64,000 nt of DNA, from the NCBI GenBank assembly GCA_003223645.1, contig QHVT01000009.1:62001-126000 (forward strand). The letters run 5' to 3'. A model generated the notes under the pieces. The model did not search any database. It was not told the origin of the DNA and saw nothing but the letters and a program-made list of their open reading frames with translations. The stretch is from Acidobacteriota bacterium. Lineage in GTDB: Bacteria; Acidobacteriota; Thermoanaerobaculia; Gp7-AA8. Position numbers and translations under genes: made by a program. Shown piece by piece: positions 91 through 64,000 of the stretch. How positions within the stretch are numbered: the stretch's first letter is position 1; each line of letters opens with the position of its first letter.

Positions 91-166
91 GCAGGGCTGA
101 GTGCTGGGTGCTGAGTGCTGGGTGCTGGGAGCTCGGCTTCTAACTCAGCACCCAGCACCCAGCACT
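91..166. repeat. Heptamer tandem repeat with facing complementary arms (GTGCTGA/GTGCTGG family)
   Basis: Between two minus-strand genes, units of GTGCTGG and GTGCTGA run in tandem at about 97-128. They are answered by complementary CAGCACC/CAGCACT units at about 145-166, with a short GC-rich spacer. The RNA would form a long imperfect hairpin. The same unit returns at 62371-62400. Confidence 0.8.
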
Positions 167-169
167 GTT

Positions 170-650: not shown

Positions 651-730
651 TGGTTGCGCGGTTGCTCGGTCGCGCGGTGGGGTGGGCGGGCCGCGCAACT
701 GCGCGACCGCGTAACCGCGCAACCCAACCT
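651..730. repeat. Octamer tandem repeat with facing arms (GTTGCGCG/CGCAACCG family)
   Basis: Roughly four 8-base units (GTTGCGCG, GTTGCTCG, GTCGCGCG) are followed by complementary units (CGCAACTG, CGCGACCG, CGTAACCG, CGCAACCC), so the region is an imperfect inverted repeat. It fills most of the gap between the AAA ATPase and the ribbon-helix-helix gene. A second copy of the same family is at 7520-7613. Position 631-649 just before it repeats AGTTTATCCCGCGCGAAGA, the arm sequence of the element at 25116-25333. Confidence 0.75.
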
Positions 731-5840: not shown

Positions 5841-5942
5841 CTTTGTGGCGACCGCTGCCCTCAGCGGTCGCGGCGGCGCGAAGCGCCGCTGGCGCCGCCG
5901 TTAGGCGGCGCTGTGACCGCTGAGGGCAGCGGTCACCACAAC
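5841..5942. repeat. Palindromic intergenic element, family A (copy 1 of 3)
   Basis: About 100 bases with terminal inverted arms (CTTTGTGGCGACCGCTGCCC at the left, GGCAGCGGTCACCACAA at the right) and GC-rich inner hairpins. It lies between convergent genes ending at 5824 and 5950. Close copies are at 41394-41487 and 46047-46143. Possible roles are transcription termination or a REP/MITE-type element. Confidence 0.8.
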
Positions 5943-7519: not shown

Positions 7520-7613
7520 CCCGGTTACGTCGGTTGCGCGATTACGCGGTCGCGGTTACGCGGCGGCCGGGGGAAGCCGCGCAACTGCGCGACCGAGCGA
7601 CTGCGCAACCGCC
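7520..7613. repeat. Octamer tandem repeat with facing arms (GTTGCGCG/CGCAACCG family, copy 2)
   Basis: Units such as GGTTACGT, GGTTGCGC and GGTCGCGG on the left face complementary GCGCAACT, GCGCGACC and GCGCAACC on the right. It fills the gap between RNase R and the TPR gene and could form a long hairpin. It is the same family as 651-730. Confidence 0.75.
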
Positions 7614-10136: not shown

Positions 10137-12082
10137 GTACGAGCCCTCGAAGCGTTCAGGTGTTGTTGGAGCGAGGAAGCGATTCTACTACTCAAGATTC
10201 GAGTGACAGGAAGAAAAATTTTTCGCGATTTTCGTTGCTTGACAGAAAGAAAAAGTGCTAGCGCGATCAGTGTGACGAGCGTCATAGCGGCGCCCGCAAA
10301 AAGCGAGCGCGCATGATAGTCGAAGACGACTTCGTGATGTCCACTCGGAACGTCGACTCCCAGAAAAAAGCCGAAAATGTGCCGTTTTTCGGCCTTTTTC
10401 CCGTCGACGCGCACGCGCCACTGCGGCGCGTCCTGCTGCGTCAGCACGGCAATGCCGTCGGCGGGCGCGTCGGCGATCACACGCGCGCGTGACGTTCCGA
10501 TCTCCCATCGCGCCGGCGTGATCGCGTTCTTCGTGATCACGAACGCCATCGGTTGCGCGCCGCGGTTGCGATAGACCGTCACGTTCGCCGCGCGCGCGAT
10601 CGCCTCGTACGACGGCGGCATCGAAAACGACGCGAGAAGATAGCCTGCCGGCAGCGCGTCGACGACGATCGGCGATGGCCGCGCGAGAATTTGCCGGTGG
10701 AGCTCCAGATAGCGCTCGTTCGCCAGCGGCGCCGCGGTGTCGGCGTCGAATCGACGGTCATACAGATTGAGATAGCCGGCGATCCAGGCGACGCGATGCG
10801 CGGGATCGATGTTCTCGGCGCGCAGAAATTTCGAGCTCGCGCCGATCGAACGGTCGTACGGAACAATGTCGCGGCGAAACGGAGCGGATTGAAACAGCGG
10901 ACGCGCGGCGGACAGCAACTCGAGACTGACGCCGAGGACGATCAGAAGATCGACCCAGCGCTGTCCGCGACGCAGGCGATCCCACCCGATCACCGCAAGC
11001 GCCGCGAGCGCGAGCGACGCGAGCGGAACGACGCGCGCGGGATAGCGGAAGAGCGTCAGCGGCAGTTGCGCGAGGAACGATGGACCGGCGGCGACAATCA
11101 CCACGATGACGAGCAGCGCGACCCACGGACTCGCACGCTTCCAGCGCGTGAGGCCGATCAGCGCGAACACGACGACCAAGACGCCGACGTACACGACCGG
11201 AATAAAGTGCTGTCCGAGTTTCGGATCGAGCTTGCCGGAGAAGACAGCCGGCGAGATCGCAACGCGCAGCCAGTCGCGGAGCGGCATCGAGTCGCGGAGG
11301 ATCAGTTCCCTCGACATCCCTCCCGCGCGATCGCTGCCGGCAATGAGCTCGACGAACGGCAGCAGCTGAATCGCGCACGCGCCGAACGCGATGACCGCTG
11401 CAATCGCGACATCGCGAACTTTTCGTGAGACGCAAACGAACATGAGCGCCGCAATCGCCGCGAGGAACGGCTCGCCGGCGAGAAACGCGAGCGCGAGCGC
11501 GAGCCCGCCGCGAATCGGCGCACGTTTCTCCGCGCACCACAACACGAGCGGGATCCAGGCGAATGACGCGAGGTTGTTGTTGACGTCGAGCAGCGACAGC
11601 ACCGGCCCGCTCAACATGAGCGCGATCGCCCCCACCATCGCCCCCCCGGGTGTCGCATCACGCGCAAAGAAAAAATACGCACCCCATCCGAGAAGCACGA
11701 GATGGAACAGCAGGAACAGCATGTACGCGGTCGGAAACGGCAGCGCGAGGAACAGCCACGACGGCGGATAAAACACGCCAGCCTGCGGATTCGCGAGCCA
11801 CGCCTCGCCCGACGCGTTGTACGGATTCCAAAGCGGCAGATGACCGGCGCGTAACTCATCGGCGGTGAACCAGCGCAGCGGTTGGAAGTAGTCGAGGTGA
11901 TCGCGGAGGGTGAAGACCTCCTGCTTGGCCAGAGGCGAGATGAAGATGGTGAGGGCGATGAGGAAGATGAGAGTGAGCGCGAAGCGATGACGAATGAAGG
12001 CAGAAGGCAGAAGGCAGAAGGCAGAACTGAGAAAGCTCTTACTTCTGCTTTCTGCCTTCTGCCTTCTGCCTTCTGCCTTCAT
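10130..12082 (-). CDS. YfhO-like polytopic membrane protein; N-terminus written by heptamer repeat
   Basis: A 650-residue membrane protein with about 12 hydrophobic segments and an extracytoplasmic C-terminal domain. The N-terminal LRDHLDYFQPLRWFTADELR and LPLWNPYNASGEAWLANPQA, then PPSWLFLALP, match YfhO-type/GT-C-like proteins thought to glycosylate or modify cell-surface polymers. The ATG at 12082 overlaps the M20 peptidase stop (ATGA), and the first ~30 residues (MKAEGRRQKAE..., FCLLPSAF) are read straight from the AGAAGGC heptamer array. No ATG follows before the first membrane segment, so the repeat-derived start is likely the true one. Enzymatic activity is unproven. Confidence 0.82.
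   Translation of the reverse strand: MKAEGRRQKAESRSKSFLSSAFCLLPSAFIRHRFALTLIFLIALTIFISPLAKQEVFTLRDHLDYFQPLRWFTADELRAGHLPLWNPYNASGEAWLANPQAGVFYPPSWLFLALPFPTAYMLFLLFHLVLLGWGAYFFFARDATPGGAMVGAIALMLSGPVLSLLDVNNNLASFAWIPLVLWCAEKRAPIRGGLALALAFLAGEPFLAAIAALMFVCVSRKVRDVAIAAVIAFGACAIQLLPFVELIAGSDRAGGMSRELILRDSMPLRDWLRVAISPAVFSGKLDPKLGQHFIPVVYVGVLVVVFALIGLTRWKRASPWVALLVIVVIVAAGPSFLAQLPLTLFRYPARVVPLASLALAALAVIGWDRLRRGQRWVDLLIVLGVSLELLSAARPLFQSAPFRRDIVPYDRSIGASSKFLRAENIDPAHRVAWIAGYLNLYDRRFDADTAAPLANERYLELHRQILARPSPIVVDALPAGYLLASFSMPPSYEAIARAANVTVYRNRGAQPMAFVITKNAITPARWEIGTSRARVIADAPADGIAVLTQQDAPQWRVRVDGKKAEKRHIFGFFLGVDVPSGHHEVVFDYHARSLFAGAAMTLVTLIALALFLSVKQRKSRKIFLPVTRILSSRIASSLQQHLNASRARTW
11996..12080. 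repeat. Heptamer tandem repeat with facing arms (AGAAGGC family), inside the 5' end of a gene
   Basis: Four AGAAGGC units on the plus strand face four or more CTTCTGC units, with a loop near 12040. The whole array is translated on the minus strand as the N-terminus of the YfhO-like protein. The same family forms a longer array at 17037-17236. Confidence 0.85.
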
Positions 12083-13452
12083 TTTCGCTCGCAGAAATCT
12101 CGCACAATCGTCCGCATCAACCGCACTCCCTCGCCAAAAAACCGCATGCGAATGCGCTCGTCCACGCCGTGCACGCTGTCCGCGTCGTAGTAGTTCACCT
12201 TGAACGGCATGATGCCGTACGCGGTGATGCCGCGCGCGCGGAAGTAGCGGCTGTCGGTCGTGCCCGGGCCGACGGTCGGCGCGACGACGGAGCCAGGCGC
12301 GTGCTCGCGCATCGCGTGCGCGACGACGTCGAACAGCTTCGTCTTCGCGGAGCTCTCCGGCACCGGCTCGCCCGCGAGAAGAACATCGACCGTCACGTTC
12401 TTGCCTGCCGCTTCACGCACGCGCGTGAGCATCGCGTCGGTTTTCGTGTCGGGAAGAAGACGAATGTCGACATCGCCGGTCGCCTTCGACGGAATCATGT
12501 TCACGGAAGTGCCGGCCGACACGTGTGTGATCGCGATCGTGTCGTGCAGGAGCGAGCGATAGCCGACCGGAAGCTCGCGCATGATCTGTTCGAGATCGAG
12601 CGGCTCGCGATAGAGCTTCATCCGCGCCGCGCGCGCGTCCTTCCGCACCGCCGCCGCCGCAGCCGCCGCGCGCGCGACGCTCGGCTCGAGCCGATACGGC
12701 GTTTCGATCGTGCGAATCGCGTCGAGCGCGCGCACGAGCTTCGCCGTCGCGCCGCCGTCATCCGGCGGGATCGCGCCGTGTCCTCCGTTGCCTTCGGCCG
12801 TGACGCGCAGCCACAGCGGAATCTTCTGCTGCACCTCGACGCCCCAGAACAACACCTTGTCGACTGCCGTCTCGTTCGAGCCACCTTCGTTGAGCACGAA
12901 CCCGACGTTCTCGATCAACTCCGGATGCTGCGCAATCAGCTTCGCCGTTCCGTGCGTGCCGCCCAGCTCTTCATCGGGCGTCGCGAGAAACACGATGTCG
13001 CGCTTCAGCGTCGCGTTGCGCCGCTTCAACTCGATCATCGATATCAGTTCCGCGACGCCGAGGCACTTCATGTCGAGCGCGCCGCGCCCCCAGATGTATC
13101 CGCCCTGTCGCGCGCCGCTGAACGGCGGCTGCGTCCAAACGCTCGCGTCGGCCGGCACCACATCGATGTGACTGAGCAGCAGCAGCGCGGGTTCTTTCGA
13201 TCCTGACACTAACCGCGCGTATACGGCCTGACGTTTCGGATCGTCGCCGACGAGTTTCGCGGCGATGCCGTCCTTCAAAAACAGGTCGCGCAGAAACGTC
13301 GCGCCGCTCGTTTCATTGCCGGGAGGGTTGGACGTGTCGATCTGCAAGTACGCGACGAACGCGTCTTCCGCTTCTTTGTCGAGCGGATCCTGCGCGGCAC
13401 CGGCCGCTTCGCGGCAGCCGACAGAAAGAAGGAGGAGCGCCAACAACGTCAT
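12079..13452 (-). CDS. M20 family metallopeptidase, lipoprotein
   Basis: A 457-residue M20/ArgE/DapE-type zinc peptidase or deacylase. A lipoprotein signal (MTLLALLLLSVGCREAAG, lipobox LSVGC) puts it in the periplasm or membrane. Zinc ligands are in LLLSHIDVVP (HxD, about residue 100), GRGALDMKCLG, ATPDEELGGTHG (catalytic Glu) and a final VHGVDERI (His). A dimerisation domain of alanine-rich helices is inserted at about 215-330. The ATG at 13452 lies exactly on the edge of palindromic element B (13450-13545). It overlaps the YfhO-like gene downstream by 4 bases. Substrate not determinable. Confidence 0.93.
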   Translation of the reverse strand: MTLLALLLLSVGCREAAGAAQDPLDKEAEDAFVAYLQIDTSNPPGNETSGATFLRDLFLKDGIAAKLVGDDPKRQAVYARLVSGSKEPALLLLSHIDVVPADASVWTQPPFSGARQGGYIWGRGALDMKCLGVAELISMIELKRRNATLKRDIVFLATPDEELGGTHGTAKLIAQHPELIENVGFVLNEGGSNETAVDKVLFWGVEVQQKIPLWLRVTAEGNGGHGAIPPDDGGATAKLVRALDAIRTIETPYRLEPSVARAAAAAAAVRKDARAARMKLYREPLDLEQIMRELPVGYRSLLHDTIAITHVSAGTSVNMIPSKATGDVDIRLLPDTKTDAMLTRVREAAGKNVTVDVLLAGEPVPESSAKTKLFDVVAHAMREHAPGSVVAPTVGPGTTDSRYFRARGITAYGIMPFKVNYYDADSVHGVDERIRMRFFGEGVRLMRTIVRDFCERK

Positions 13453-13545
13453 CCCGAGCGTGAGCGAGGGACCTGGGCGGGTGGCGCTGCGAGGCATACG
13501 TTTCGTGCACCACCCGCCCAGGTCCCTCGCTACGCTCGGGATGAC
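13450..13545. repeat. Palindromic element, family B (copy 1 of 3)
   Basis: About 96 bases opening GTCATCCCGAGCGTGAGCGA and closing with the complementary CCTCGCTACGCTCGGGATGA, with GGGACCTGGGCGG and its complement inside. It separates thymidine kinase from the M20 gene and supplies the M20 start codon. The first 30 bases are identical to the copy at 19602-19699. Confidence 0.85.
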
Positions 13546-16315: not shown

Positions 16316-17022
16316 AGTCGGTTCCGCCGGTAATCGGTCGCGCCCGCGAGCTCGACGCGTTCGGCCATCTCCGCGAGGCGGCTGCGCAGCCGCGTGCCGA
16401 TGCGCTGCTCGAACGTCTCTTCCTTCGCGTCGCTGGCGTGCTCGGGATAGTTGGTGGTGAAGATCGTCGTCAGCTCGGCGTTATAGCGCGAGTTGATCAC
16501 GTAATAAAGAATGTCCTGCACGAAGTTCGTCGGCTTCTGCGATCCCAGCTCATCGAGCACGAGCAGGTCCGCTTCCAGCAGTGGACGCAGAAGCTCCGAC
16601 TTGCTGGGCACTTCATCGGAGTCGAACGACGCCTGGATCTCCTGAATCAGATCCTGAAAATTCGAGAACAACATCCGCCCCGGCTTCCCGCTGTTGATCA
16701 CTTCCAGCAGCGCCGCGACGGCGAGGTGCGTCTTCCCCGCCCCACACCCGCCCATCAACAACAGGCCATTCGTATTCGGCCAGAGATACACGAACTCCTG
16801 CACGCGCTTCTTCGCATTGCGCAGCACCGTCGAGTCGTCGCGAAACGTGTCGAGCGTGCAATGCGCGTAACGCTTCGGAATGCTCGCCGACAAAACCCGC
16901 TCGCGCTTCCGCAAGTCGCCCTGACACCCGCAAGGCTCCACGCGCAGGTTGTCATCGGCCATCGGAACCCAACCGGAACCATTGCAGCGCGGGCACGGGG
17001 AGGCGACAGGGACGGGACGCAT
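16312..17022 (-). CDS. DnaC/DnaI-like AAA+ ATPase with N-terminal zinc ribbon
   Basis: A 236-residue ATPase like the helicase loaders DnaC/DnaI. The N-terminus has a zinc ribbon (CPRCNGSG and CGCQ, residues 9-34). The AAA core has Walker A LMGGCGAGKTHLAV (about 88-101), Walker B LLVLDELGSQ and sensor 1 TTIFTTNYPE, followed by an arginine-rich end with RLRSRL. In known systems such proteins load the replicative DnaB helicase. An in-frame extension upstream of ATG 17022 is only translated repeat DNA, so this start is used. It heads the long minus-strand run. Confidence 0.9.
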   Translation of the reverse strand: MRPVPVASPCPRCNGSGWVPMADDNLRVEPCGCQGDLRKRERVLSASIPKRYAHCTLDTFRDDSTVLRNAKKRVQEFVYLWPNTNGLLLMGGCGAGKTHLAVAALLEVINSGKPGRMLFSNFQDLIQEIQASFDSDEVPSKSELLRPLLEADLLVLDELGSQKPTNFVQDILYYVINSRYNAELTTIFTTNYPEHASDAKEETFEQRIGTRLRSRLAEMAERVELAGATDYRRNRL

Positions 17023-17036
17023 TGGGGAGAGTTTAA

Positions 17037-17236
17037 AGCAGAAGGCGGAAGGCAGAAGGCAGAAGGCAGAAGGCAGAACGAAGAAGTGAGAAGTTCGAGG
17101 TTCGAATTCTAAATTCTTCATTCGCACCTCGAACTTCGAACCTCAACACTTCTCACTTCTGCCTTCTGCCTTCTGCCTTCTGCTTTCTGCCTTCTGCTTT
17201 CTGCTTTCTGCCTTCTACTTTCTGCCTTCTGCTTTC
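17037..17236. repeat. Long nested heptamer array (AGAAGGC family with inner CGAACTT units)
   Basis: About 200 bases filling the gap between divergent genes. AGAAGGC units at 17037-17077 face CTTCTGC units at 17155-17236. Inside lie a second pair of arms, GAAGTGAGAAG against CTTCTCACTTC, and a third around TCGAGGTTCGAA against TTCGAACCTC, centred near 17115. The result is one large cruciform-capable palindrome that must overlap the promoters of both flanking genes. Confidence 0.85.
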
Positions 17237-17261
17237 ATTTCTCTATACTCGCCCCCACCCG

Positions 17262-19595
17262 ATGAAGACCCTCGTTTCCTATCTCGCCCAGCGTCCCGAC
17301 TCCTCGACGTTCTTTCTTCCGCAGGACATCGAGCGCGCGCTGAGCGAGTTGTTTCCGCAGCCGGAGGCGCTGCTGCCGAAGCCGCTGAAGATTTATCCGG
17401 CGGACGAGACGCAGCAGCCGATCCTCGGCTTCCCAGTGTCCGAGTCGCCGCTGCTGAAGGATCTCGAGACGAAGCTCGATCGGTGGCTCACGGAAGAGGT
17501 CACGTTTCAGGTCACGCGTGCGACCGACGCGAAGGACAAGGCCGCGGCCGCGTTCAACATCTACATCGGCAACCTGATGAAGGCGGCCGAGAACGCGTTG
17601 ATGTCGAATCTGCTCTCCGACTATCACGCGATTTTCTGGCTCGCGCATTCGTTCGATCTCGCGCGGCATTTCGGCTCGCTGCCCCGCCGCGTCAGCGCCG
17701 CCGACACGCAAGTCGGCCGCTCCCTCGGCGACACGTTGAAGTACCGCATCTTCGGCCGCTGGGTCAGCGAGACGCGCCAGCAGATGACCGAGCTTTCCGC
17801 GAAAGCAGGCAGTCTCCTCGAAGGCGAAGAGCAGCGCGGATTGCAGTTCTTTCGATTGCTGCAGGACGACGTGCTGATTCTGACCGAGGAGTTCGTCGGA
17901 CCGGATTTGCGCGAGCTGCGATCGTTCCTCAACGGATACCTGCGCCGCGATTTTCAGAGCTTTCGCGATTCGTTCGAGCGATTGCGCACGACGGCAGCGG
18001 ACCTGATGCAGCGCGAGCGCAACTTCCGCGCGGCGCTCCCGCTCTTCGGCGCGAATCCCGATCAAGGCGTCACGCTCGCGCTGCTCCTCGATCCGCGATT
18101 CGAAAACTTTCTGTTCGATCATCCAATGGCGCAGAACGCGGTCACGCGCGAGGAGCGCGAGCAGTTTCAGTTGATCGCGCGCCGCGTGCGCGAGTTCGCC
18201 GTGCTCAACCAACTGCGGCGCGGCATCGTCTGGACGAACACGCTGCCGGACGGCGAAGTCGTGTCCGCCGACCGCCGCAGCGCGACGACGTACTCACGCT
18301 CCACGCGGCCGATGGATTTCGGCAAGCCCGGCGTCGTCGATCCGATGATCCATCGCTTCGGGATGATCTACGACATGTCCGCGTTCTCGGAGACGCTCGG
18401 ACGCATCCGCCGCGGCGGCGGCAAGGAAGAGATTCGCTCGTATCGGCAGATGCTCGTGTTTCAGCGCAAGCTCGACGCGATCGCGCAGCGGCACCTCCTC
18501 CAATTCGAGAAGTTCCTCGGCGACGGCGCGTTCTACACCACGCGCCGCGCGCTGCGCCTCGTGCGCGCGGCCGTCGAGATCCAACGCTTCTACACCGAGA
18601 TGAAGCGCAAGGGATTCGCGTTCAACAAAGGGCTGCGCATCGCGTTGAATTACGGCTATTACCGATTGCTGCCGATGAAGACCGCGGCGGAGTCGAGCGA
18701 GCGCATCACCGAGTTCTACGGTCCCGGCATCGTCGAACTGTCGCGCCTCACCACGGGAAAATCGAATCGCGAGATCGATGAGATCGCGTCGTTCCTCGTG
18801 CAGCACGGCTACGACCAGTCGAAAGTCCAGCAGTTCTTTGCACCTCTTCGAGGGGCTGACGTGATCGATCACACGCAGCATGCGCGCGAGTACTACGCGT
18901 ACCTCGACGCGAACGGACATCTCGTCAACGAAGGCATCGTCGGCTCCACGTCATTTCTGCAGGAGCTATCGAACGAGCTGCAGGCCGAAGCGCAGCAGCT
19001 CTATCGCGCGCGCACGCCGTACGGAAACTTCGTCGCCTTCAAGCCCGCCATCACCGACGTTGAACTGATCGGCGCGCGTCTCCTCGGCAGTGTGTCCTTG
19101 AAAGGACTCGATCGCATCGAAGTCGGCGAGATCGTTCCGTTCGCGGCGAACGAAGTCGAAGAGCTCACACCGATCGATGTCCCCGAGCTGTTCATCATGC
19201 TCCTGCGCCAGGAGTTCCATCACGAAGCGGACGAGCAGTCGCCCGCGTTCGAGCGGCATCACACGACGACGCGCGAGCGTTTGATCGGCAGCGAGATCGT
19301 GATCTGCGTGCGCACGACGCCGACCGATGCCGACGACGAAGTCCTCATCGGCGAATGGGACCCCAGCTCCGACGACGTCCGCCGCCCATTGCGACTGCCG
19401 CGCGGCGACTTCCAGCGATTGTTCTCGTTGCGCGGCGAGCTGTCGCCGGAAACGCTGGAAGGGAAAAAAGATCTGGTGCGCGAGATGTACGAGCGCTTGT
19501 CCGCGCGCGCAGCGAATCCCGCGCTGGCGTTCGGGCCGTACCGGGAGGGGGAGTACGACTCGTATGTGTTGGGGGATGTGGTCGAGAAGCTGTGA
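17262..19595 (+). CDS. Large protein with degenerate class III nucleotide-cyclase-like domain
   Basis: A 777-residue soluble protein that I do not recognise as a whole. Residues about 360-500 look like a diverged adenylate/guanylate cyclase core: GMIYDMSAFSETL (metal Asp, ~370), 30 residues of helix, then KFLGDGAFYT (second metal Asp, ~420), an alanine-rich helix with AAVEIQRFY, the strand LRIALNYGYYRLL and finally YGPGIVELSRLT where the N-x3-R transition-state motif would be. The two flanking halves (1-360 and 500-777) are mostly helical with no known motif. The Asn of the final motif is replaced, so activity is doubtful. Next to it is the nuclease-helicase at 19718, separated by palindrome B. 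Confidence 0.8.
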   Translation: MKTLVSYLAQRPDSSTFFLPQDIERALSELFPQPEALLPKPLKIYPADETQQPILGFPVSESPLLKDLETKLDRWLTEEVTFQVTRATDAKDKAAAAFNIYIGNLMKAAENALMSNLLSDYHAIFWLAHSFDLARHFGSLPRRVSAADTQVGRSLGDTLKYRIFGRWVSETRQQMTELSAKAGSLLEGEEQRGLQFFRLLQDDVLILTEEFVGPDLRELRSFLNGYLRRDFQSFRDSFERLRTTAADLMQRERNFRAALPLFGANPDQGVTLALLLDPRFENFLFDHPMAQNAVTREEREQFQLIARRVREFAVLNQLRRGIVWTNTLPDGEVVSADRRSATTYSRSTRPMDFGKPGVVDPMIHRFGMIYDMSAFSETLGRIRRGGGKEEIRSYRQMLVFQRKLDAIAQRHLLQFEKFLGDGAFYTTRRALRLVRAAVEIQRFYTEMKRKGFAFNKGLRIALNYGYYRLLPMKTAAESSERITEFYGPGIVELSRLTTGKSNREIDEIASFLVQHGYDQSKVQQFFAPLRGADVIDHTQHAREYYAYLDANGHLVNEGIVGSTSFLQELSNELQAEAQQLYRARTPYGNFVAFKPAITDVELIGARLLGSVSLKGLDRIEVGEIVPFAANEVEELTPIDVPELFIMLLRQEFHHEADEQSPAFERHHTTTRERLIGSEIVICVRTTPTDADDEVLIGEWDPSSDDVRRPLRLPRGDFQRLFSLRGELSPETLEGKKDLVREMYERLSARAANPALAFGPYREGEYDSYVLGDVVEKL

Positions 19596-19601
19596 TGTCA
19601 T

Positions 19602-19699
19602 CCCGAGCGTGAGCGAGGGACCTGGGGCTCGGGTGGTGGCACGAGGCGCATTCCTCGCAGCCGCCCCCGCCCAGGTCCCTCACTCACGTTCGGGATAAC
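19602..19699. repeat. Palindromic element, family B (copy 2 of 3)
   Basis: Opens GTCATCCCGAGCGTGAGCGA and closes with the complementary CCTCACTCACGTTCGGGATAAC; the first 30 bases are identical to 13450-13479. It sits between the cyclase-like gene and the helicase, both plus strand, and may work as a read-through attenuator. Confidence 0.85.
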
Positions 19700-19717
19700 A
19701 GCAGTTAATATGAACCT

Positions 19718-22156
19718 GTGCGCGTCGACTACGACAAACGCGAGATCGTCTGCTCGGTCGGCGATCTCGTCCATGAGTCGACTTACCGCCGCATCGGCGT
19801 GGAGCGCGGCGACGGGTTCCGGCGGATGTGGATCGGGCAGGACATCCACTCGCGCCGTGCGGAGCAGCGCGCGGGAGAAGATCCGAAATATCGCGCCGAG
19901 GTGCACGTCGTCCACCGGACGACACTCGCCGGATGGTCGATCACGATCACCGGACGCATCGACGGGCTCTCCGTCGACCGCGATGAGCAGCGCGTCAACA
20001 TCGAGGAAGTGAAGTCGATTCACTTCGATCTCGAGCTCGAAGCACTCTACAGATCGGAGAAACTGCAGCGCCACCTCTATCAGCTGCTGCTCTACGCGTA
20101 CTTTCTTTCCAGCCAGCCCGATTTCACTGGATTTACTTTCGAGCCGCAGCTGGTGTTGATCGATCTCGTCTCCGGCGATACGAAGATCGTCGACACGGAA
20201 TTCGATCGCGATCGCGTCGCGACGACGCTCGACACATCACTCGCAAAACTGATCGAGGAGCTCGAGACCGCGGCGGCGCTGCGTGTCGCGAAGCGCGCGT
20301 TCGCCGACACCTTGCACTTCCCGTTCGACGCGCTGCGCCCCGGCCAGGAAGAGATGATCTCCGCCGTCGCGCGTGCCGTATATCAACGCGATTCGCTGCT
20401 CATCTCCGCACCGACCGGCATCGGCAAAACGATGGCCGTGCTCTATCCCGCGCTGCGGCAGTCGCTGAAGCTCGGCAAGAAGCTGTTCGTGCTCACGTCG
20501 AAAACATTGCAGCAGGACGCGGCGATCACCGCGCTGCGTCTGCTCAACGACGGCTCGTTCCGCGTGTTGCGCATCCGCGCGAAGGCGAAGATGTGCGCTC
20601 ACACGGAGATGATCTGTCACGAAGACTTCTGTCCGTTCGCCGCGCGCTACTCCGAGAAGATGGAGAAGAGCGGTCTGCTTCAGCATCTCGTGACGTCGAT
20701 GAGCTACTTCGATCCCGACATCACGTTCGAGCTCGCACGCGACCGCGAAGTCTGTCCGTTCGAAGTCTCGCTCGAGCTCATCGAGCAGGCCGACGTCATC
20801 GTCTGCGACTACAACTACATCTTCGATCCCTACGTCGGCCTCAAGGCCTATCAACAGGAGAACGACTACGGCGACTGCGTGCTCGTGGTCGACGAGGCGC
20901 ACAACCTCGTCGATCGCGGGCGCGGCTACTACTCGCCGGAATTGCATGAGAAATCGTTCGACGACATCACCAAGCATCTGATGACGCGCAACTGCTGGGT
21001 GGAAGGGTGGGAGGAGTTGCTCGAGCTTTTGCGCGCTCACTTCCACGAGCTCGCGCAAGTCCTCGAAGGCGACGTGAAGCAGGCGCTGTGCGAGCCGAAC
21101 CGCGAGCTGTTCATCGATCAGCGGACGGAGTGGGAGCGGCTCGTGCTCGCGTACATCGGCTGGAAGATCGACAACCGCATCGCCGAGGAAGACGACCCGC
21201 TGATCGACTTCTACTTCAAGCTCGTGAAGTTTACGAATTTGCTCGCCGAGGATGGCGACGAGTTCGCGCACATGGTCGAGAAGACGCAGGACGGGATCAA
21301 GCTGAAGATTTTCTGCAAAGACCCCTCGCGTTTCCTCGGCAAGATCTTCGACTCCGCGCACGCGACCGTCGCGCTCTCCGCGACCCTCGAGCCCTTCGAC
21401 TTCTATCGCAAGACCCTCGGCTTCCCCGAAGATCGCACCGCCGAGTTGTCACTCCCCTCCCCCTTTCCGCGCGACAACCGAAAGATCGTCGTCGTTTCCG
21501 AGGTCGACACCACGTACAAGCGCCGCGCGGACCACTACGACCGCATTGCCACGAACGTCGCCGATATCGGTGACGCCGGTGACGGCAACTTCCTCGCGCT
21601 CTTCCCGAGCTACGCGTTCCTGCGCGAGATCGCGGAGCGATTGCCGCCGATGCGCAAGCACGTGATGGTGCAGCGCACCGACATGACGGACTACGAGCGC
21701 AACGCCATCCTCGACATCCTGCGCAACCGATCGCAGAAGGGAAATTTGATTCTCGCGGTGTCGGGCGGAATGTACGCCGAGGGAATCGACTACCAGGGCG
21801 ACATGCTCGCGGGCGTGATGGTCGTCGGCCCCGCGCTGCCGCAAGTCAGCTTCGAGCAGGAGCTGCTCAAACAGTATTACGACGAGCAATACGGCGCGGG
21901 ATTCGAGTTCGCGTATCTGATTCCGGGAATGACGCGCGTCGTGCAATCGGCGGGACGCGTCATCCGCAGCGAGACCGACATCGGCGTCATCGCGCTCCTC
22001 TGCAAACGGTTCACGCAGGAGACGTACACCCGATATTTCCCGAGCGACTGGTACGAAGAATCGCCGCGCGAGCTCGTGTCGCGCAAACCCGCGCTCGACG
22101 TGCGCGCGTTCTTCGATGAAAAGACGATCAAACCGCAATTGAGGTTGGTGTTTTGA
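19718..22156 (+). CDS. Fused PD-(D/E)XK nuclease / XPD-DinG-type DNA helicase
   Basis: An 812-residue protein starting at GTG 19718. The first ~150 residues form a RecB/Cas4-like nuclease: GRIDGLSVD (Asp), NIEEVKSIH (ExK, ~96-98) and the QLLLYAY motif. Then comes a superfamily 2 Rad3/XPD helicase: Walker A SAPTGIGKTMAVLYPAL (~228), iron-sulfur Cys at KMC, MIC, DFC and EVC (~290-345), DEAH box VVDEAHNL (~389), SATLEPFDF, and the arginine finger motif MTRVVQSAGRVIRS. Such helicases unwind DNA 5'-to-3'. The nuclease motif residues are complete. Similar fusions occur in repair and defense; its role here is unknown. Confidence 0.92.
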   Translation: MRVDYDKREIVCSVGDLVHESTYRRIGVERGDGFRRMWIGQDIHSRRAEQRAGEDPKYRAEVHVVHRTTLAGWSITITGRIDGLSVDRDEQRVNIEEVKSIHFDLELEALYRSEKLQRHLYQLLLYAYFLSSQPDFTGFTFEPQLVLIDLVSGDTKIVDTEFDRDRVATTLDTSLAKLIEELETAAALRVAKRAFADTLHFPFDALRPGQEEMISAVARAVYQRDSLLISAPTGIGKTMAVLYPALRQSLKLGKKLFVLTSKTLQQDAAITALRLLNDGSFRVLRIRAKAKMCAHTEMICHEDFCPFAARYSEKMEKSGLLQHLVTSMSYFDPDITFELARDREVCPFEVSLELIEQADVIVCDYNYIFDPYVGLKAYQQENDYGDCVLVVDEAHNLVDRGRGYYSPELHEKSFDDITKHLMTRNCWVEGWEELLELLRAHFHELAQVLEGDVKQALCEPNRELFIDQRTEWERLVLAYIGWKIDNRIAEEDDPLIDFYFKLVKFTNLLAEDGDEFAHMVEKTQDGIKLKIFCKDPSRFLGKIFDSAHATVALSATLEPFDFYRKTLGFPEDRTAELSLPSPFPRDNRKIVVVSEVDTTYKRRADHYDRIATNVADIGDAGDGNFLALFPSYAFLREIAERLPPMRKHVMVQRTDMTDYERNAILDILRNRSQKGNLILAVSGGMYAEGIDYQGDMLAGVMVVGPALPQVSFEQELLKQYYDEQYGAGFEFAYLIPGMTRVVQSAGRVIRSETDIGVIALLCKRFTQETYTRYFPSDWYEESPRELVSRKPALDVRAFFDEKTIKPQLRLVF

Positions 22157-22159
22157 GGA

Positions 22160-22245
22160 GATGGCGGATGGCAGATGGCAGATGGCGAAAGCTCGGGCTC
22201 GTGTATCTCTTCTGCCTTCTGCCATCCGCCATCTGCCATCTGAGC
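22160..22245. repeat. Heptamer tandem repeat with facing arms (GGCAGAT family), inside a 5' coding end
   Basis: GGCAGAT units at about 22164-22186 face GCCATCT/GCCATCC units at about 22213-22243. It is translated as the signal peptide of the following lipoprotein. Another copy of this unit family is at 45812-45896. Confidence 0.85.
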
Positions 22246-22734
22246 TGCGCCTCGAAGCCGCAAACGCCCGTTGCACCGGAATGGACCGCGATTCCGCAAG
22301 GTGTCGTCGAGGCCTTCTGCCTGCGACTCAAAGCCGAAGGCGTCGCAGAAGGGCAGCCGGTCGCGATCGTCAGCACCACGCAACCCTTCACGACGATGAA
22401 CGCGATCGCCTTGCTGGCCGGCCCGACTCCGAAACGCCCGAACATGGAGATCGCCACCGCCGCCCTCTACGCATCCCAACGCGCCATCCCGCTGACGCTC
22501 GGACCCGGCGGCTGCACCTGGATCGCGATCGATTCCGCAAAAGCGTATCGCCGCGCCGATCAGATGATCGTGGAGATGTCGGCCCCCGCCCCCAACCCCT
22601 TCCGCCTCAAAGAGGCGGGACTCTTCGCGCGCATGTCCCTCGCCGGCGAGCACGGACAGTGGTACTGGATCTCGCTCCTCCAGCACGAGGGCGCGTGGGT
22701 GGTGGGGGGGATTGAGGCGCTGCCGGCGATTTAA
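22168..22734 (+). CDS. Predicted lipoprotein with repeat-derived signal peptide
   Basis: A 188-residue protein. ATG 22168 has a GAGGAG Shine-Dalgarno at 22155-22160, overlapping the helicase stop, so the two genes are coupled. The signal region (LVYLFCLLPSAICHLSC) is encoded by the GGCAGAT heptamer palindrome and ends in a lipobox-like HLSC. The mature protein (ASKPQTPVAPEW onward) is a soluble domain of unknown fold containing FCLRLKAEGVAEGQPVAIV and WYWISLLQHEGAWVVGGI. A shorter start at GTG 22201 would still keep the hydrophobic stretch. Its position after the helicase suggests no obvious shared job. Confidence 0.78.
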   Translation: MADGRWRKLGLVYLFCLLPSAICHLSCASKPQTPVAPEWTAIPQGVVEAFCLRLKAEGVAEGQPVAIVSTTQPFTTMNAIALLAGPTPKRPNMEIATAALYASQRAIPLTLGPGGCTWIAIDSAKAYRRADQMIVEMSAPAPNPFRLKEAGLFARMSLAGEHGQWYWISLLQHEGAWVVGGIEALPAI

Positions 22735-25089: not shown

Positions 25090-25115
25090 TGCGGCGCGCA
25101 GTCTAACCTCTCTTC

Positions 25116-25333
25116 AGTTTATCCCGCGCGAAGACGCGGGATCTCTGGCGGCACCGGCAGCAAAGCCCGCGGCGTGCGCAAAGGGCTCCAGCTTCGCTCG
25201 TCGTCACGTTCGACGCGGAATCTGTGGTTACACCGGCAGGAGTTTACCGACAGGCGCGAACGGCGGTCGTCCTCATCGTGGTTCCGCTCAGCGCGGCGTC
25301 ACCGGAGATCTCGCGTCTTCGCGCGGGATAAAC
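25116..25333. repeat. 218-bp element with 30-bp terminal inverted repeats
   Basis: The left arm (25116-25145) begins AGTTTATCCCGCGCGAAGA and the right arm (about 25304-25333) is its complement with 29 of 30 bases paired. The 160-base interior has no ORF of note. The element covers the last ~15 codons and stop of the GT39 gene. A lone copy of the first 19 arm bases is at 631-649. Size and arms resemble a MITE; target-site duplications were not identified. Confidence 0.8.
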
Positions 25334-26994
25334 TGGAAGGCCACCTGATGCGCGCCTTCGGCGATGCGGCGGAAGCCGCGCGACTCGAGCAGCGCGCGCC
25401 GCTTCGCGTCGTCGTTGCGAAGAATATACATCGGGCAGCAGGTGCCGAGGCTTTGGCCGAAGTAGGAGAGCGGCTTGATCGGCGAGTACGGATTGCGCGC
25501 GAACTGGTCGTAGCGGCGCATCAGATAATTGCTCGTCAGCTCGCTCGCGTCTTCGCTGACGACGATGATCGGGCGCTCGAGATAGAACATCAGCGAGCCG
25601 GTGAATGCCTCGACGCCGATGACTTGCGTGTCCGGAGCGAGATGCGGCTTCAGCGCAGTTGCGAGGGACTTCGCGGAGCGGCGCTCGGCGATGCCGAGCA
25701 TCAGCGGATTCGTAAGGAGCGGCAACGCGACGATCGGCAGCGAGAGCGCGATGAGCGCGAGCTCGCGACGCTTCGCGAAGATCGCGACGAGACCGCCGAG
25801 GACGAACGCGACGCCGAGGGCGATCGCCGTCTCGCCGGCGAACGCGGCGACCTCCGGCTTCATCTTCGCGCGATGGAAGAAGAGCGGCGCGATGAGGAAC
25901 AGCGCGCCGAATGCAGCGACCACGATCGCCGTCGCGCGCGTGCGCGCCTCGTCCCAGATGCCCGCGACGATCAGCGCGAGCGCGGGCAGCAGCGGGAGAA
26001 TGTACTGCGGGCGCTTCGACTGATTGAGCGAGAAGAAGACGAACGGGATGAGGATCCAGAGAGAGAGAAACAGCGTGTCATTCCGAGCCGCGAAGACGGC
26101 GAGGAATCCCCGGCGCAAGTGCGTGCTCGCTCCGTCGGCGGGGGATCCTTCGCCGTCTTTGCGGCTCAGGATGACGCGTGAGCTCATCAGCGCGATGAGC
26201 GACCACGGCAGCGCGCCCCCGATCAAATACGGGATGAAGTACCACGGCGGTCCGGTGCGCTTGAGCGCCTTCGTCGCCATCCGCTCCGCGGTCTCGGTGA
26301 CGAGCACGTAGTGCAGAAACTCCGGTACGACGCGCGTCACGCCCCACAGCCACGGCGCGATGATCGCCGCGAACGCGAGGATGCCGAGAATCGGAAAGAG
26401 CCTGCCGAGCGACTTGCGATAGATCGCATACGGAATCGCGACGAAGAGCACGAGCACGAACGTGACCGGACCCTTCGTGATGATCGCGAGACCCATCGCC
26501 GCCCACGCCAGGATCGACCAGCGCGAGTTGCGCTCTTCGATCGAGAAGTAAAATGCGATCAACGCGACCGTGCAGAAGAACGTCAGTGCGCTGTCGAAGA
26601 TGACGGTGCGCGCGAATGCGATCGTGAGCGGCATCGCCAGAAAGACGATCGCCGCGACGTACGGCGTGTCGCCACCCCACACGCGCCGCGCGAACCAGAA
26701 CAGCATCGCCGCAGTTGCGAGCGTGAAGAGGTACGCGGGCAGGCGCGCGGCCAGCTCCGTCGGTCCGAAAACTTCCATCGCCGCCGCTTCCGCAGCGAAG
26801 TACACGACCGGCTTGTCGAGATACGGCAGTCCGTCGAGCCGCGGCATGACGTAGTCGTTCGTCGCCGCCATCTCGCGGCCGACTTCCGCGTTCCGGCCTT
26901 CATCGGCATCGAGCAACGGAAAGCCGCCGAGATGGATCGCCAGCGCGATCACCTCGACGGCGAGCCAGATCTTGAGAACGTTCGTGCGCGTCAA
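25288..26994 (-). CDS. Glycosyltransferase family 39 / ArnT-like membrane protein
   Basis: A ~568-residue protein with a dozen membrane segments. The first luminal loop reads FPLLDADEGRNAEVGREM, with the acidic pair typical of GT-C enzymes (ArnT, PMT) that move sugars from polyprenyl-phosphate donors to lipid or protein. A TTG at 26994 is the best start; the open frame continues to 27672 only because the 21-bp array upstream is open. Residues about 272-306 come from palindromic element B read in frame between two membrane segments, and the last ~15 residues come from the terminal inverted repeat element. Such an enzyme would tolerate loop insertions. Confidence 0.88.
   Translation of the reverse strand: MTRTNVLKIWLAVEVIALAIHLGGFPLLDADEGRNAEVGREMAATNDYVMPRLDGLPYLDKPVVYFAAEAAAMEVFGPTELAARLPAYLFTLATAAMLFWFARRVWGGDTPYVAAIVFLAMPLTIAFARTVIFDSALTFFCTVALIAFYFSIEERNSRWSILAWAAMGLAIITKGPVTFVLVLFVAIPYAIYRKSLGRLFPILGILAFAAIIAPWLWGVTRVVPEFLHYVLVTETAERMATKALKRTGPPWYFIPYLIGGALPWSLIALMSSRVILSRKDGEGSPADGASTHLRRGFLAVFAARNDTLFLSLWILIPFVFFSLNQSKRPQYILPLLPALALIVAGIWDEARTRATAIVVAAFGALFLIAPLFFHRAKMKPEVAAFAGETAIALGVAFVLGGLVAIFAKRRELALIALSLPIVALPLLTNPLMLGIAERRSAKSLATALKPHLAPDTQVIGVEAFTGSLMFYLERPIIVVSEDASELTSNYLMRRYDQFARNPYSPIKPLSYFGQSLGTCCPMYILRNDDAKRRALLESRGFRRIAEGAHQVAFQFIPREDARSPVTPR
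26077..26178. repeat. Palindromic element, family B (copy 3), read through inside a gene
   Basis: Opens GTCATTCCGAGCCGCGAAGA and closes with the complementary CTTTGCGGCTCAGGATGAC. It lies wholly within the GT39 gene and adds about 34 residues (including VILSRKDGEGSPADGAS and FAVFAARNDTL-like sequence) without breaking the frame. Confidence 0.8.
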
Positions 26995-27011
26995 TGTCGC
27001 ACGGCACGATA

Positions 27012-27189
27012 TCGCGTCACGTCGTCGTCGACGAAGGTTCCTTCGGCGTGGTTTCTCGCGCTCGAGCTGGGGGAGCTGGCGGAGTTGGCATGGTCGGATG
27101 AGATGCGTTGGAAGCAGGTGCCGCGGCCCGGCTCGATCGACGCGATCGTGGCGGCGTATGAGGCGGCGGCGGATTCGCAGGACAGTTGA
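27012..27189 (+). pseudogene. Possible gene remnant before the 21-bp array
   Basis: One plus-strand frame reads STKVPSAWFLALELGELAEL, then AWSDEMRWKQVPRPGSIDAI, then VAAYEAAADSQDS and a TGA at 27187-27189. Composition and codons look protein-like, but no start codon is found upstream in this frame. The frame of the following SLAS repeat is offset by one base, so a single-base change could once have joined the two. This is an inference from codon pattern only. Confidence 0.3.
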
Positions 27190-27781
27190 TTCGATTTCAC
27201 TTGCATCCGAGCCAGTTTCACTTGCATCCGAGCCAGTTTCACTTGCGTCCGAGCCAGTTTCACTTGCATCCAGGCCGATTTCACTTGCATCCGGGCCAGT
27301 TTCACTTGCATCCAAGCCAGTTTCACTTGCATCCAAGCCAGTTTCACTTGCATCCGAGCCAGTTTCACTTGCATCCAAGCCAGTTTCACTTGCATCCAAG
27401 CCAGTTTCACTTGCATCCGGGCCAGTTTCACTTGCATCCAAGCCAGTTTCACTTGCATCCAAGCCAGTTTCACTTGCATCCGGGCCAGTTTCACTTGCAT
27501 CCAAGCCGATTTCACTTGCATCCGGGCCAGTTTCACTTGCATCCAAGCCGATTTCACTTGCATCCGGGCCAGTTTCACTTGCATCCGAGCCAGTTTCACT
27601 TGCATCCGGGCCAGTTTCACTTGCATCCGGGCCGGTTTCACTTGCATCCGGGCCGGTTTCACTTGCATCCAAGCCAGTTTCACTTGCATCTGGGCCGGTT
27701 TCACTTGCAAACGAGTTGGTTACGTTTGCGAATCAACCAATTTCGCTCGCGAATGAAGGCATTCGAAAATTGCCGGAATAA
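27158..27781 (+). CDS. Heptapeptide-repeat protein, (V/I)SLA(S/N)xP units
   Basis: From ATG 27158 the frame reads MRRRRIRRTVDSISLASEPV and then 24 near-identical seven-residue units encoded by the 21-bp array, then three diverged units (VSLANEL, VTFANQP, ISLANEG) and a stop at 27781. In the diverged units the SLA codons change from TCA CTT GCA to TCG CTC GCG, all silent, which suggests this strand and frame is translated. Within the array, the sixth residue varies (E, K, G, R) while Pro and Ser change only silently. The start is unclear, no signal peptide is seen, and the function is unknown. It could instead be a decayed gene. Confidence 0.4.
   Translation: MRRRRIRRTVDSISLASEPVSLASEPVSLASEPVSLASRPISLASGPVSLASKPVSLASKPVSLASEPVSLASKPVSLASKPVSLASGPVSLASKPVSLASKPVSLASGPVSLASKPISLASGPVSLASKPISLASGPVSLASEPVSLASGPVSLASGPVSLASGPVSLASKPVSLASGPVSLANELVTFANQPISLANEGIRKLPE
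27195..27719. repeat. 21-bp direct tandem repeat, 24 near-identical units plus diverged edge
   Basis: Units with the core TTTCACTTGCATCC start every 21 bases from 27195 to 27678, and a 25th (27699) is partly changed. Three further diverged units extend to about 27781. Differences between units are confined to a few positions. There are no spacers of varied sequence, so it is not CRISPR. Five of the six reading frames stay open across it. Confidence 0.95.
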
Positions 27782-41393: not shown

Positions 41394-41487
41394 CTGTGGC
41401 GACCGCTGCCCTCAGCGGTCGCGCGGCGCAACGCGCCGCTGGCCGGCAAGCCGGCGGTGCCGCTGAGGGCAGCGGCACCCACAAAAG
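41394..41487. repeat. Palindromic intergenic element, family A (copy 2 of 3)
   Basis: CTGTGGCGACCGCTGCCCTC and AGCGGTCGC on the left face GCCGCTGAGGGCAGCGGC and ACCCACAAAAG on the right. It separates convergent genes ending at 41385 and 41493, where a bidirectional terminator is plausible. Confidence 0.85.
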
Positions 41488-45811: not shown

Positions 45812-45896
45812 GCCATCTGCCATCTGCCATCTGCCATCGGCCATCTGCCATCGGCCATCGGCGAAGCTGCCATCCGCGAAGCTGCCATCCACGAAG
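45812..45896. repeat. Heptamer GCCATCT tandem repeat
   Basis: About ten units of GCCATCT, GCCATCG and the octamer-like GCCATCCGCGAA run in one direction between ybaK and the tRNA gene. It belongs to the GGCAGAT family at 22160-22245, but here the complementary arm is missing or weak. The rest of 45741-45967 shows no gene. Confidence 0.75.
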
Positions 45897-58461: not shown

Positions 58462-58572
58462 CTGCCTGGCCTCCCGGCCTCCGAGCCTCCGAGCCTCCTA
58501 GAGGTCTCCTGGTCTCCGAGTCTCCTGGTTTCCTAGGAGGCTAGGAGGCTGGGAGACCGGGAGGCTGGGTGG
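58462..58572. repeat. Octamer tandem repeat with facing arms (CCTCCGAG family)
   Basis: CCTCCCGG, CCTCCGAG, CCTCCGAG, CCTCCTAG on the left, with middle units of GGTCTCCTG, face CTAGGAGG, CTAGGAGG, CTGGGAGA, CCGGGAGG on the right; the centre is TTTCCTAGGAGG near 58530. It lies between convergent genes. Confidence 0.8.
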
Positions 58573-62369: not shown

Positions 62370-64000
62370 ACGGTGCTGAGTGCAGAGTGCTGAGTGCTGA
62401 GATGGAACGCCGATCGCGGTGCACGTACCCGGCACCCGGCACGCGGCACCCGGCACTTCTCCGCGTCGTTGCTTTTCTCTTCCTCGCGCTCTTCACCTTC
62501 TTCGCACTCGCCGCCGACAAGAAACCGGAGCTCTCGCGGCGCGAGCGCAAGGATCGCATCGCCAAACTCGCCGAGCCGTACCGGCAGTTCCTGACCGAAG
62601 TCGGACCGATCATTCAAACGTTCGAGCGCGACGCGTTCCTGATGCTCGAAAGTGACGCGCAGCGCGACGCGTTCATCGACGACTTCTGGCGCCGCCGCGA
62701 CATCGCGCGCGGCACGACCAACAACGCCGCGCGCAACGAGTACAACACGCGCCTCGAATACGTGCGCGAGAACTTCGAAGGCATCTCTTCCGACCGCGGC
62801 ACGATCTATCTCGTGCAGGGACCGCCGCAGGGAATGATCGACGCGAAGTGCCAGCAGTACTTTCAGCCGCTGCAGATCTGGGGCTACGGCTACATCGAAG
62901 GCTACGGCCACGAAGTCCGCCTCCTCTTCTACCTGCCGCGCAATCAGCGCGAGTTCCGGTTGTGGGATCCCTTCACCGAGGGAATGGCGGCGCTGCAGTC
63001 GGACGACATCATGTCCAACCACGAGCAGTTCACGATGGAGGACGTCGCCAACAACTGCCGCAACGGAGAAGAGATCGTCGCCGCGCTGGCGATCATGCAG
63101 AACAACCAGTACAAGCTCCGCGACATCTTCAAGCCGCCGGCGATCAACGAAGAAGACATCGGCAAAGTCCTGCGCGCGTCCGTCCTCCTCGACAACAGCG
63201 CGCCGAAGCTCGCCGGCGCCGAACAGAAGATCACTTACCCCGCCGCGAAAGGCGCGAAGACCGACGCGCAGCTGACGATCATGGTTCCGCGCGCGCAGCT
63301 CAAGACCACCACCGCCGGCGCGAGCACGGTGTACACGATCGACGTCGTCGGCGAAGTGTTGCGCGACGAGAAGATGTGGGAGCGCTATCGCTATCGTTTC
63401 GATTTCCCCGGCGACATCAAGGACGAGAAGCTGCCGATCGTCATCGATCGCTTCCTCAAGCCGGCCACGTATCGCTCGCGCGTGAAGATCACCGACGCCT
63501 CGTCGAGAGCGCAGACGATCATCGAGGCCGATCTCGTCGTGCCCGAGCTGGAGATGCCGAAGACCGCGGAGTCGGAGACGCTCGACGTCATTCGCGAAGA
63601 CGTCCAGTCGACGCGCGCGACGCTGCGCATCGTGCCGCTCTCCGAGAGCGTGATCAGCGGACTGACGACCATCCAGACGATCGTCAGCGGCAGCGGCATC
63701 AAGGCCGTCGAGTTCTGGCTCGACGGAAAGAAGATCGCGACGCGTCACGCGCCGCCGTACACGCTCGACCTCGACTTCGGCACCGTGCCGCGCTCGCGGA
63801 AGATCCGCGCCGTCGCGCTCGACGCGCATGACCTCCCGATCACCGGCGACGAGATCGTGATCAACACCGGCACCGATCCGTTCCGCGTGCGCATCGCGTC
63901 GCCCAGGGTCGCGCCGAAGCTCAGCGGACCGACGCGCGTGGAAGTGGAAGCGCGCGTGCCGGAAGGAAAAGAGCTGGCATCGGTCGATCTGTACTGGAAC
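62366..64000 (+). CDS. Second GWxTD-type protein, paralog (partial at window edge)
   Basis: The frame from ATG 62366 runs to the window end (545 codons). Its first ~32 residues (MNGAECRVLSAEMERRSRCT, APGTRHPALL) are read from the GTGCTGA/CGGCACC repeat, then a signal-like helix follows (VVAFLFLALFTFFALAAD). An in-frame ATG at 62402 is the alternative. Residues ~70 on (DAFLMLESDAQRDAFIDDFW, TIYLVQGPPQGMI, FKPPAINEEDIGKVLRASVL) align throughout with the gene before it, so it is a tandem duplicate. A VWFA end should lie beyond the window. Confidence 0.9.
   Translation, partial: MNGAECRVLSAEMERRSRCTYPAPGTRHPALLRVVAFLFLALFTFFALAADKKPELSRRERKDRIAKLAEPYRQFLTEVGPIIQTFERDAFLMLESDAQRDAFIDDFWRRRDIARGTTNNAARNEYNTRLEYVRENFEGISSDRGTIYLVQGPPQGMIDAKCQQYFQPLQIWGYGYIEGYGHEVRLLFYLPRNQREFRLWDPFTEGMAALQSDDIMSNHEQFTMEDVANNCRNGEEIVAALAIMQNNQYKLRDIFKPPAINEEDIGKVLRASVLLDNSAPKLAGAEQKITYPAAKGAKTDAQLTIMVPRAQLKTTTAGASTVYTIDVVGEVLRDEKMWERYRYRFDFPGDIKDEKLPIVIDRFLKPATYRSRVKITDASSRAQTIIEADLVVPELEMPKTAESETLDVIREDVQSTRATLRIVPLSESVISGLTTIQTIVSGSGIKAVEFWLDGKKIATRHAPPYTLDLDFGTVPRSRKIRAVALDAHDLPITGDEIVINTGTDPFRVRIASPRVAPKLSGPTRVEVEARVPEGKELASVDLYWN
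62371..62456. repeat. Heptamer repeat (AGTGCTG and CGGCACC units) inside the 5' end of a gene
   Basis: AGTGCTG, AGTGCAG, AGTGCTG, AGTGCTG at 62374-62400 and CGGCACC, CGGCACG, CGGCACC, CGGCACT at about 62431-62457. Both tracts are translated as the start of the second GWxTD protein. The first unit family is that of 91-166. Confidence 0.8.

Follow-up and report, generated by a model that had tools for sequence, protein, structure and literature searches.

Why should short tandem repeats of unrelated sequence be arranged on one and the same design? The question is raised by a 64,000-nucleotide stretch of DNA (the window; bases 62001-126000 of contig 5 in the 6.38-Mb draft genome, G000, of a soil bacterium of the Acidobacteriota, Thermoanaerobaculia), in which eight loci had been noted as tandem units, most of them facing their own complement. 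All eight indeed have this inverted layout, with units of 7-8 bp; six of them pass a strict test for tandem-armed hairpins (an ungapped stem score of at least 16 and tandem periodicity in both arms), and the remaining two, at 7522-7612 and 62373-62456, are degenerate but real.

A 962-kb sample of the window genome was searched for ungapped hairpins and tandem arrays, with genes called by a simple coding model. Hairpins with a score of at least 18 numbered 215 in the real sequence and none in dinucleotide shuffles, and tandem-armed hairpins numbered 95 against none across five such shuffles, a very large excess over chance. Among these 95 the period is 7 bp in 57, 8 bp in 22, 9 bp in nine and 6 bp in seven cases. 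About 20 different unit words, 6-9 bp long and mostly 7, were counted in the sample, and the total for all genomes sampled is 64 distinct units; the same word recurs, in the same polarity, at 4 to 14 distant loci. The proposal of a common design with unrelated units is thus borne out, all the more as the same junctions carry other words in related species. Direct repeats of at least 6 bp were present in the flanks of 2 of the 95 loci, with 3.7 expected; as had also been proposed, the loci are therefore not one fixed element with target duplications, and they differ in this respect from miniature inverted-repeat transposable elements moved by a DDE transposase.

The explanation that we favour, with a probability of roughly 0.4, is that these arrays represent dispersed, lineage-specific families of REPIN-like inverted pairs, copied within the genome into gaps between genes and read via their word. 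Each family would consist of an inverted pair of (word-N)n arrays around a mostly unrelated spacer of about 20 bp; such pairs would be copied into tolerated intergenic gaps, slippage would afterwards alter the number of units per arm, and positions outside the word would drift freely. In place of RAYT, the transposase of REPINs, a trans-acting factor would recognise or template the word. Both the spread of copies by mobilisation and the trans-acting factor are what we infer from the following observations.

Polarity, words and arms

Each hairpin is self-complementary, so that polarity is a matter of which arm comes first. Read 5' to 3', the first arm is the G-rich one at 133 of 149 loci (p=4e-24), as it is for 44 of the 55 distinct words of unbalanced composition (p=9e-6), although loci, like the junctions considered below, are not independent observations. 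Recurrent words each have a single polarity, with one exception, and the bias is weak among non-tandem hairpins (121:71). This bears directly on the mechanism suggested originally, taken here as slippage that builds an array and fold-back template switching that writes its complement beside it, at each locus independently. The 7-bp step would then reflect the footprint of the polymerase (Rehm et al. 2015, PMC4692102, cite this idea). A period near 7 whatever the word fits such local generation. However, if each locus had folded back alone, both polarities would be expected for a word; apart from that one exception only one is seen, and local fold-back is thus not supported as a general origin. 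The occurrence of identical words at many distant loci speaks against it as well.

Substitutions within the units are distributed unevenly. When units of a family are pooled, substitutions are concentrated in one or two columns bearing all four bases and the word columns are fixed, an unevenness that reaches significance in most of the families that could be tested. In AGTGCTG, the column counts are A77G33C7T1, G118, T118, G94C16A8, C118, T106 (12 others) and G115 (3 others), and the same pattern is found in the families GAGTGAN, GCCTCCNR, GAATTGN and TAGGACNN. The two arrays at 11993-12083 and 17035-17236, which are shared with a species of the same genus (G001), provide a direct test: with the unit read as G A A n n n A, differences amount to 0/24, 0/24, 0/24, 20/20, 2/20, 7/20 and 0/20, so that 0 of 92 word sites differ, compared with 29 of 60 other sites (p=9e-15), with fourfold sites of the flanking genes 67.6% identical. 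In one array shared by two further relatives, G005 and G014, the pattern is less clean. This leaves two readings: recognition, templating or selection may keep the word constant, or a sister family that carries this word may have refilled the site. A word that stays conserved while the N bases saturate is not what slippage alone would produce, which is a further argument against purely local generation.

In the larger families, the arms keep to set phases of the word at their beginning as well as at their end, e.g. GTNCTG...GT, TAGGAC...TAGGAC or GANNGCA...GA. At 43% of loci the two arms differ in length by no more than half a copy, where 26% would be expected, and identical units show slight clustering at lags of 1 and 2, which indicates that slippage acts, if modestly. 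The order of units is mirrored between arms beyond shuffled order, with an identity of 0.921 versus 0.901 for 7-mers (z 8.3), a significant but small effect, and a z of 5.6 for 6-mers. An earlier and larger difference (0.80 versus 0.59) was rejected because the hairpin register had been picked to maximise the match; when both sides are scored at their best shift, the values are 0.817 versus 0.794. Some locus-specific variants, such as those at C1:36883, are perfectly mirrored. The mirroring, the clustering of identical units and the partly matched arm lengths would be expected from local generation, but an arm matches its own partner hardly better than it matches right arms from elsewhere in its word family (65 of 1000 permutations do as well as the true pairing), and a clear own-arm excess is limited to the GAAGGCA family and three loci of G001. 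It is possible that some GAAGGCA loci are locally made fold-backs. Within a word family, loci otherwise look like copies rather than independent events, because of the single polarity per word, the weak own-arm match and the fixed arm phases. Of the generating process proposed originally, slippage is therefore retained as a modest contribution, template switching locus by locus is not supported as a general origin, and we consider independent local generation unlikely as the source of these arrays.

Loci that have a word in common mostly have unrelated loops, of about 20 bp; exceptions are few and comprise some families with a common loop motif and two GAAGGCA loci that have most of the loop in common. 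An alternative origin would resemble the fusion of telomeres. A repeat-adding polymerase could extend both 3' ends of a break with the same word, the last base of each unit being poorly templated, before the ends are joined, which would yield a G-rich 5' arm, a short unrelated spacer and a C-rich 3' arm. Such end addition would account for the polarity, for the unrelated loops and for arms that have a common word but largely independent strings of N bases, and it would do so better than the mobilisation we favour; the missing target duplications and the equal period of unrelated words are also in agreement with it. Ku (PF02735) provides a lead only: among the genomes G000-G040, most members of the bacterial family to which the window genome belongs have 2-4 copies of the gene, and the majority of genomes elsewhere in the class have at most one. 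However, Ku is absent from the family members G004 and G013, and G004 still has two tandem-armed hairpins. Furthermore, the inner ends of the arms are phased as well, which end addition leaves unaccounted for, the many words per genome would require many templates, and reverse transcriptases are not found in several array-bearing genomes. We know of no bacterial repeat-adding enzyme of this type, and altogether consider end addition quite unlikely.

Turnover at gene junctions

The arrays are located between genes, with only 4 of 84 paired arrays wholly inside called genes. The orientation of the flanking gene pairs follows the general mix (co-directional, divergent and convergent 56/16/14, compared with 455/114/111 overall; p=0.91). 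In 55 of 85 cases in which a gene reads into an array, the array is located at most 6 bp from the stop codon. At most junctions that are filled in the window genome, the G001 genes overlap or are separated by gaps of about 6-23 bp, and so short a gap offers an insertion no place other than that separating a stop codon from the leader of the gene that follows. Targeting of stop codons was thus dropped as an explanation, as these gaps leave no alternative space.

The loci of the window illustrate this arrangement. The strict hairpin at 92-167 (unit GTGCTGR) fills the gap between two minus-strand genes with a G-rich 5' arm of GTGCTGR heptamers (92..133) and a right arm of CAGCACC/CAGCACT heptamers (143..167), the stop codon of the right neighbour being located at 170; the G001 counterpart of this junction is a 16-bp gap with no array. 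A 13-bp gap with no array likewise corresponds in G001 to the strict hairpin at 652-724 (unit GGTTGCGC), which consists of GGTTGCGC-type octamers with the word GGTNNCGC (652..678) and of GCGCAACC-type octamers (691..724) ending 4 bp from a stop codon at 729. Degenerate GGTTACGC/GGTTGCGC octamers (7522..7563) face a degenerate complement (7578..7612) 2 bp from the stop codon, at 7615, of an RNB-domain ribonuclease gene. The two arrays shared with G001 are strict hairpins with the unit GAAGGCA. In the first (11993-12083), GAAGGCA heptamers (11993..12026), which carry other N bases in the orthologous G001 array, are followed by TGCCTTC heptamers (12042..12083) that overlap the stop codon of an M20 peptidase gene (12079-12081). 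The second (17035-17207, extending to 17236) is situated between divergent genes; its left arm (17035..17094) corresponds to a GAACGCA array in G001, and its right arm of TGCCTTC heptamers (17148..17236) ends immediately upstream of TATACT, a putative -10 box.

Four further arrays complete the set. Between 22159 and 22234, a strict hairpin with the unit GGCRGAT comprises GGCRGAT heptamers (22159..22186) and GCCATCT heptamers (22211..22242); the latter word recurs as a one-armed array of 6.9 copies, without a facing arm, at 45812..45859. The strict hairpin at 58469-58565 (unit GCCTCCGA), with GCCTCCNR octamers (58469..58498) followed by CTAGGAGG octamers (58533..58566), is among the few with a C-rich 5' arm. 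Finally, GTGCTGA heptamers (62373..62401), located 4 bp past a stop codon at 62369, face CGGCACC heptamers (62427..62456) whose complement reads GTGCCG; the words of these arms, GTGCTG and GTGCCG, differ by one base, and arms can thus diverge separately.

Genomes of relatives were draft metagenome assemblies, one per species, with samples of 29-195 kb each. Tandem-armed hairpins were present in every sampled member of the bacterial family at 21-219 per Mb (from small samples), with mostly different words; their density is 12 per Mb in a genome of the sister family, and a single such hairpin was found in five genomes from other families of the class taken together. In G001, the syntenic 195-kb contig (contig 13, L085-L094) contains 5 hairpins, about one tenth of the density in the window genome, and four arrays are retained. 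A site filled in G014 is empty in its congener G005; another site in these two genomes has a shared array with altered units. The near-empty junctions of G001 and the empty site of G005 opposite the filled one of G014 show that whole hairpins are gained or lost.

The junction after a helicase gene (window position 22156) varies between species. In place of the GGCRGAT units of the window it carries GGATGAA in L071 and L073, GGCAGAA in L078, GCGGACC in L075, CAGACCA-type units in L079 and a CACAGAGG-type array in L072, and it is without an array in L074, L076, L080 and L082. The divergent junction at 16962-17262 and the junction at 19595-19718 are likewise refilled or variable among relatives. 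At 16962-17262, all relatives have an array or another insert between the putative -10 boxes of the divergent genes, with TATACT-like boxes intact.

Arrays at the helicase junction also reshape a protein. In the window, L071, L072, L073 and L078, differing arrays supply, in frame, the signal peptide of one and the same lipoprotein-like gene (22153..22734 on the plus strand in the window, where the predicted N terminus MRRWRMADGRWRKLGLVYLFCLLPSAICHLSC is encoded by the array). The purine-rich first arm encodes charged residues and the pyrimidine-rich second arm hydrophobic ones, so that the purine-first polarity supplies both the charged start (22159..22186 in the window) and the hydrophobic core (22211..22242) of the signal peptide in five species. 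Ordinary short signal peptides are encoded in L074, L076 and L082, and L080 appears to be likewise.

Recurrent filling of the same junctions might suggest that selection retains the arrays for a role in RNA or DNA, be it that of a terminator, a 3'-end hairpin, a quadruplex or a binding-site array, with any hairpin serving. Indeed, over all comparable junctions, array occupancy in other family members tracks that in the window genome (odds ratio 7.2, p=0.0017), an effect driven by two junctions, different hairpins refill the same junctions in several species, and words are conserved. However, convergent gaps are not enriched and a U-tract follows the hairpin in only 3 of 85 cases, which excludes intrinsic terminators in general; an arm with four GGG runs is present at 2 of 87 loci, which does the same for quadruplex arrays. 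In addition, the few hairpins of G001 and its shorter gaps at the same junctions speak against such a function, and adjacency to stop codons follows from the gap size. A selected function is in our view distinctly improbable as the reason for these arrays.

Other repeats occur in similar settings. Non-tandem hairpin families (TGTGGCGACCGCTGCC, GTCATCCCGAGCG, CAGTTTATCCCGCGCG) are located in similar gaps of the window (5843-5941, 13463-13531, 19596-19700, 25115-25335, 41403-41475), and G001 is without a hairpin at these junctions. Hairpins of one family are nested in the loop of a tandem-armed hairpin of another family at the upstream junction of L074 and on contig 5 of G000 (200363-200501). 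A 21-bp repeat with 24.5 copies (27195-27709) within a large open reading frame (25288-27672, minus strand) is coding and unrelated to the arrays.

Candidate enzymes

If arrays were true REPINs mobilised by RAYT, with arms that are tandem incidentally, a Y1 (RAYT-type) transposase should be associated with them. Inverted conserved ends and variable spacers agree with this possibility, and Y1 transposase genes are common in the bacterial family. However, the sole Y1 gene of the window genome (contig 4, 53122-53433; L105) is flanked on both sides by GTGGAGCGGCGCCCGC hairpins, a conventional REP-type family of its own, and G001 encodes no Y1 transposase yet has arrays. Inspection of arm ends revealed no common terminal tag of the GTAG/CGTC type among the words. 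RAYT-mobilised REPINs are thus largely refuted for the window genome, and we regard them as very unlikely. Two other candidates were rejected as well: reverse transcriptase (PF00078) was not found in the array-bearing genomes G001, G002, G004, G008, G012 and G017, and Y-family polymerases (PF00817) are encoded in most genomes and are uncorrelated with arrays.

Several of these observations also weigh against the dispersed inverted-pair families that we favour. A copied hairpin should carry its loop, but most loops are unrelated; about 20 families are an odd ratio to one candidate transposase; tandem arms of 6-9 bp units are atypical of REPINs; the lone Y1 gene belongs with a different family, and four arrays persist in G001 without any; and among the enzymes considered, none was found to track the arrays.

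Comparison with known repeats

In eukaryotes, head-to-head interstitial telomere repeats consist of G-rich tandem units that face their complement across a short spacer; there is one word per species, and it is made by telomerase. The arrays described here resemble them in layout, and we use this as an analogy only. Among bacterial repeats, REPIN/REP sequences with their RAYT (Bertels and Rainey 2011, PMC3116915) are similar in having inverted conserved ends around a less conserved spacer, in forming hairpins and in being extragenic. In contrast to REPINs, arms here are tandem words of 6-9 bp, belong to many families per genome and are not associated with a resident RAYT. The TAACTGA heptamers of Beggiatoaceae (PMC4679880) also form intergenic arrays with a lineage-specific distribution, but those repeats are direct, nearly all one-armed and of one word. 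Heptamers of the short tandemly repeated repetitive (STRR) type in heterocystous cyanobacteria, such as GGGGA(C/T)T in Nostoc PCC 7120, have 7-bp tandem units with a variable base and are dispersed and mostly intergenic as well, although few facing pairs have been reported there.

The closest published case are the (GGGANTN)n repeats of Xanthomonas (Rehm et al. 2015, PMC4692102), in which positions 1-4 and 6 are conserved and which form 70-75 convergent facing pairs per genome. They are intergenic and near the upstream open reading frame, are found at the same genes with varied length and sequence in two species, and their function was left unresolved. Both systems thus have 7-bp tandem units with fixed and one or two variable columns, arranged in convergent facing pairs that are mostly intergenic. 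Whereas Xanthomonas has a single G-rich word, the words found here number about 20, are 6-9 bp long and with few exceptions have no quadruplex potential, and orthologous junctions carry different words in different species. Literature searches returned no report of facing heptamers in Acidobacteria.

A more specific version of word recognition would give bacteria of this family a factor that recognises short words, or writes them, in constant steps of 7-9 bases (a templated word plus one free base), thereby adding or maintaining facing, G-rich-first arrays at gene junctions. We consider this proposal unlikely; if true, however, such a factor would give bacteria an equivalent of telomere-type repeat addition or of the maintenance of satellites by word reading, and would explain the heptamers of Xanthomonas and Nostoc too. 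Heptamer repeats have been noted in several bacterial phyla and are so far unexplained. The arrays of the window genome belong to this known kind, to which they add many words on one design, refilled junctions and a test that separates word from free bases; together with the strict polarity and the near-empty congener, these features place testable constraints on the process by which such repeats arise.
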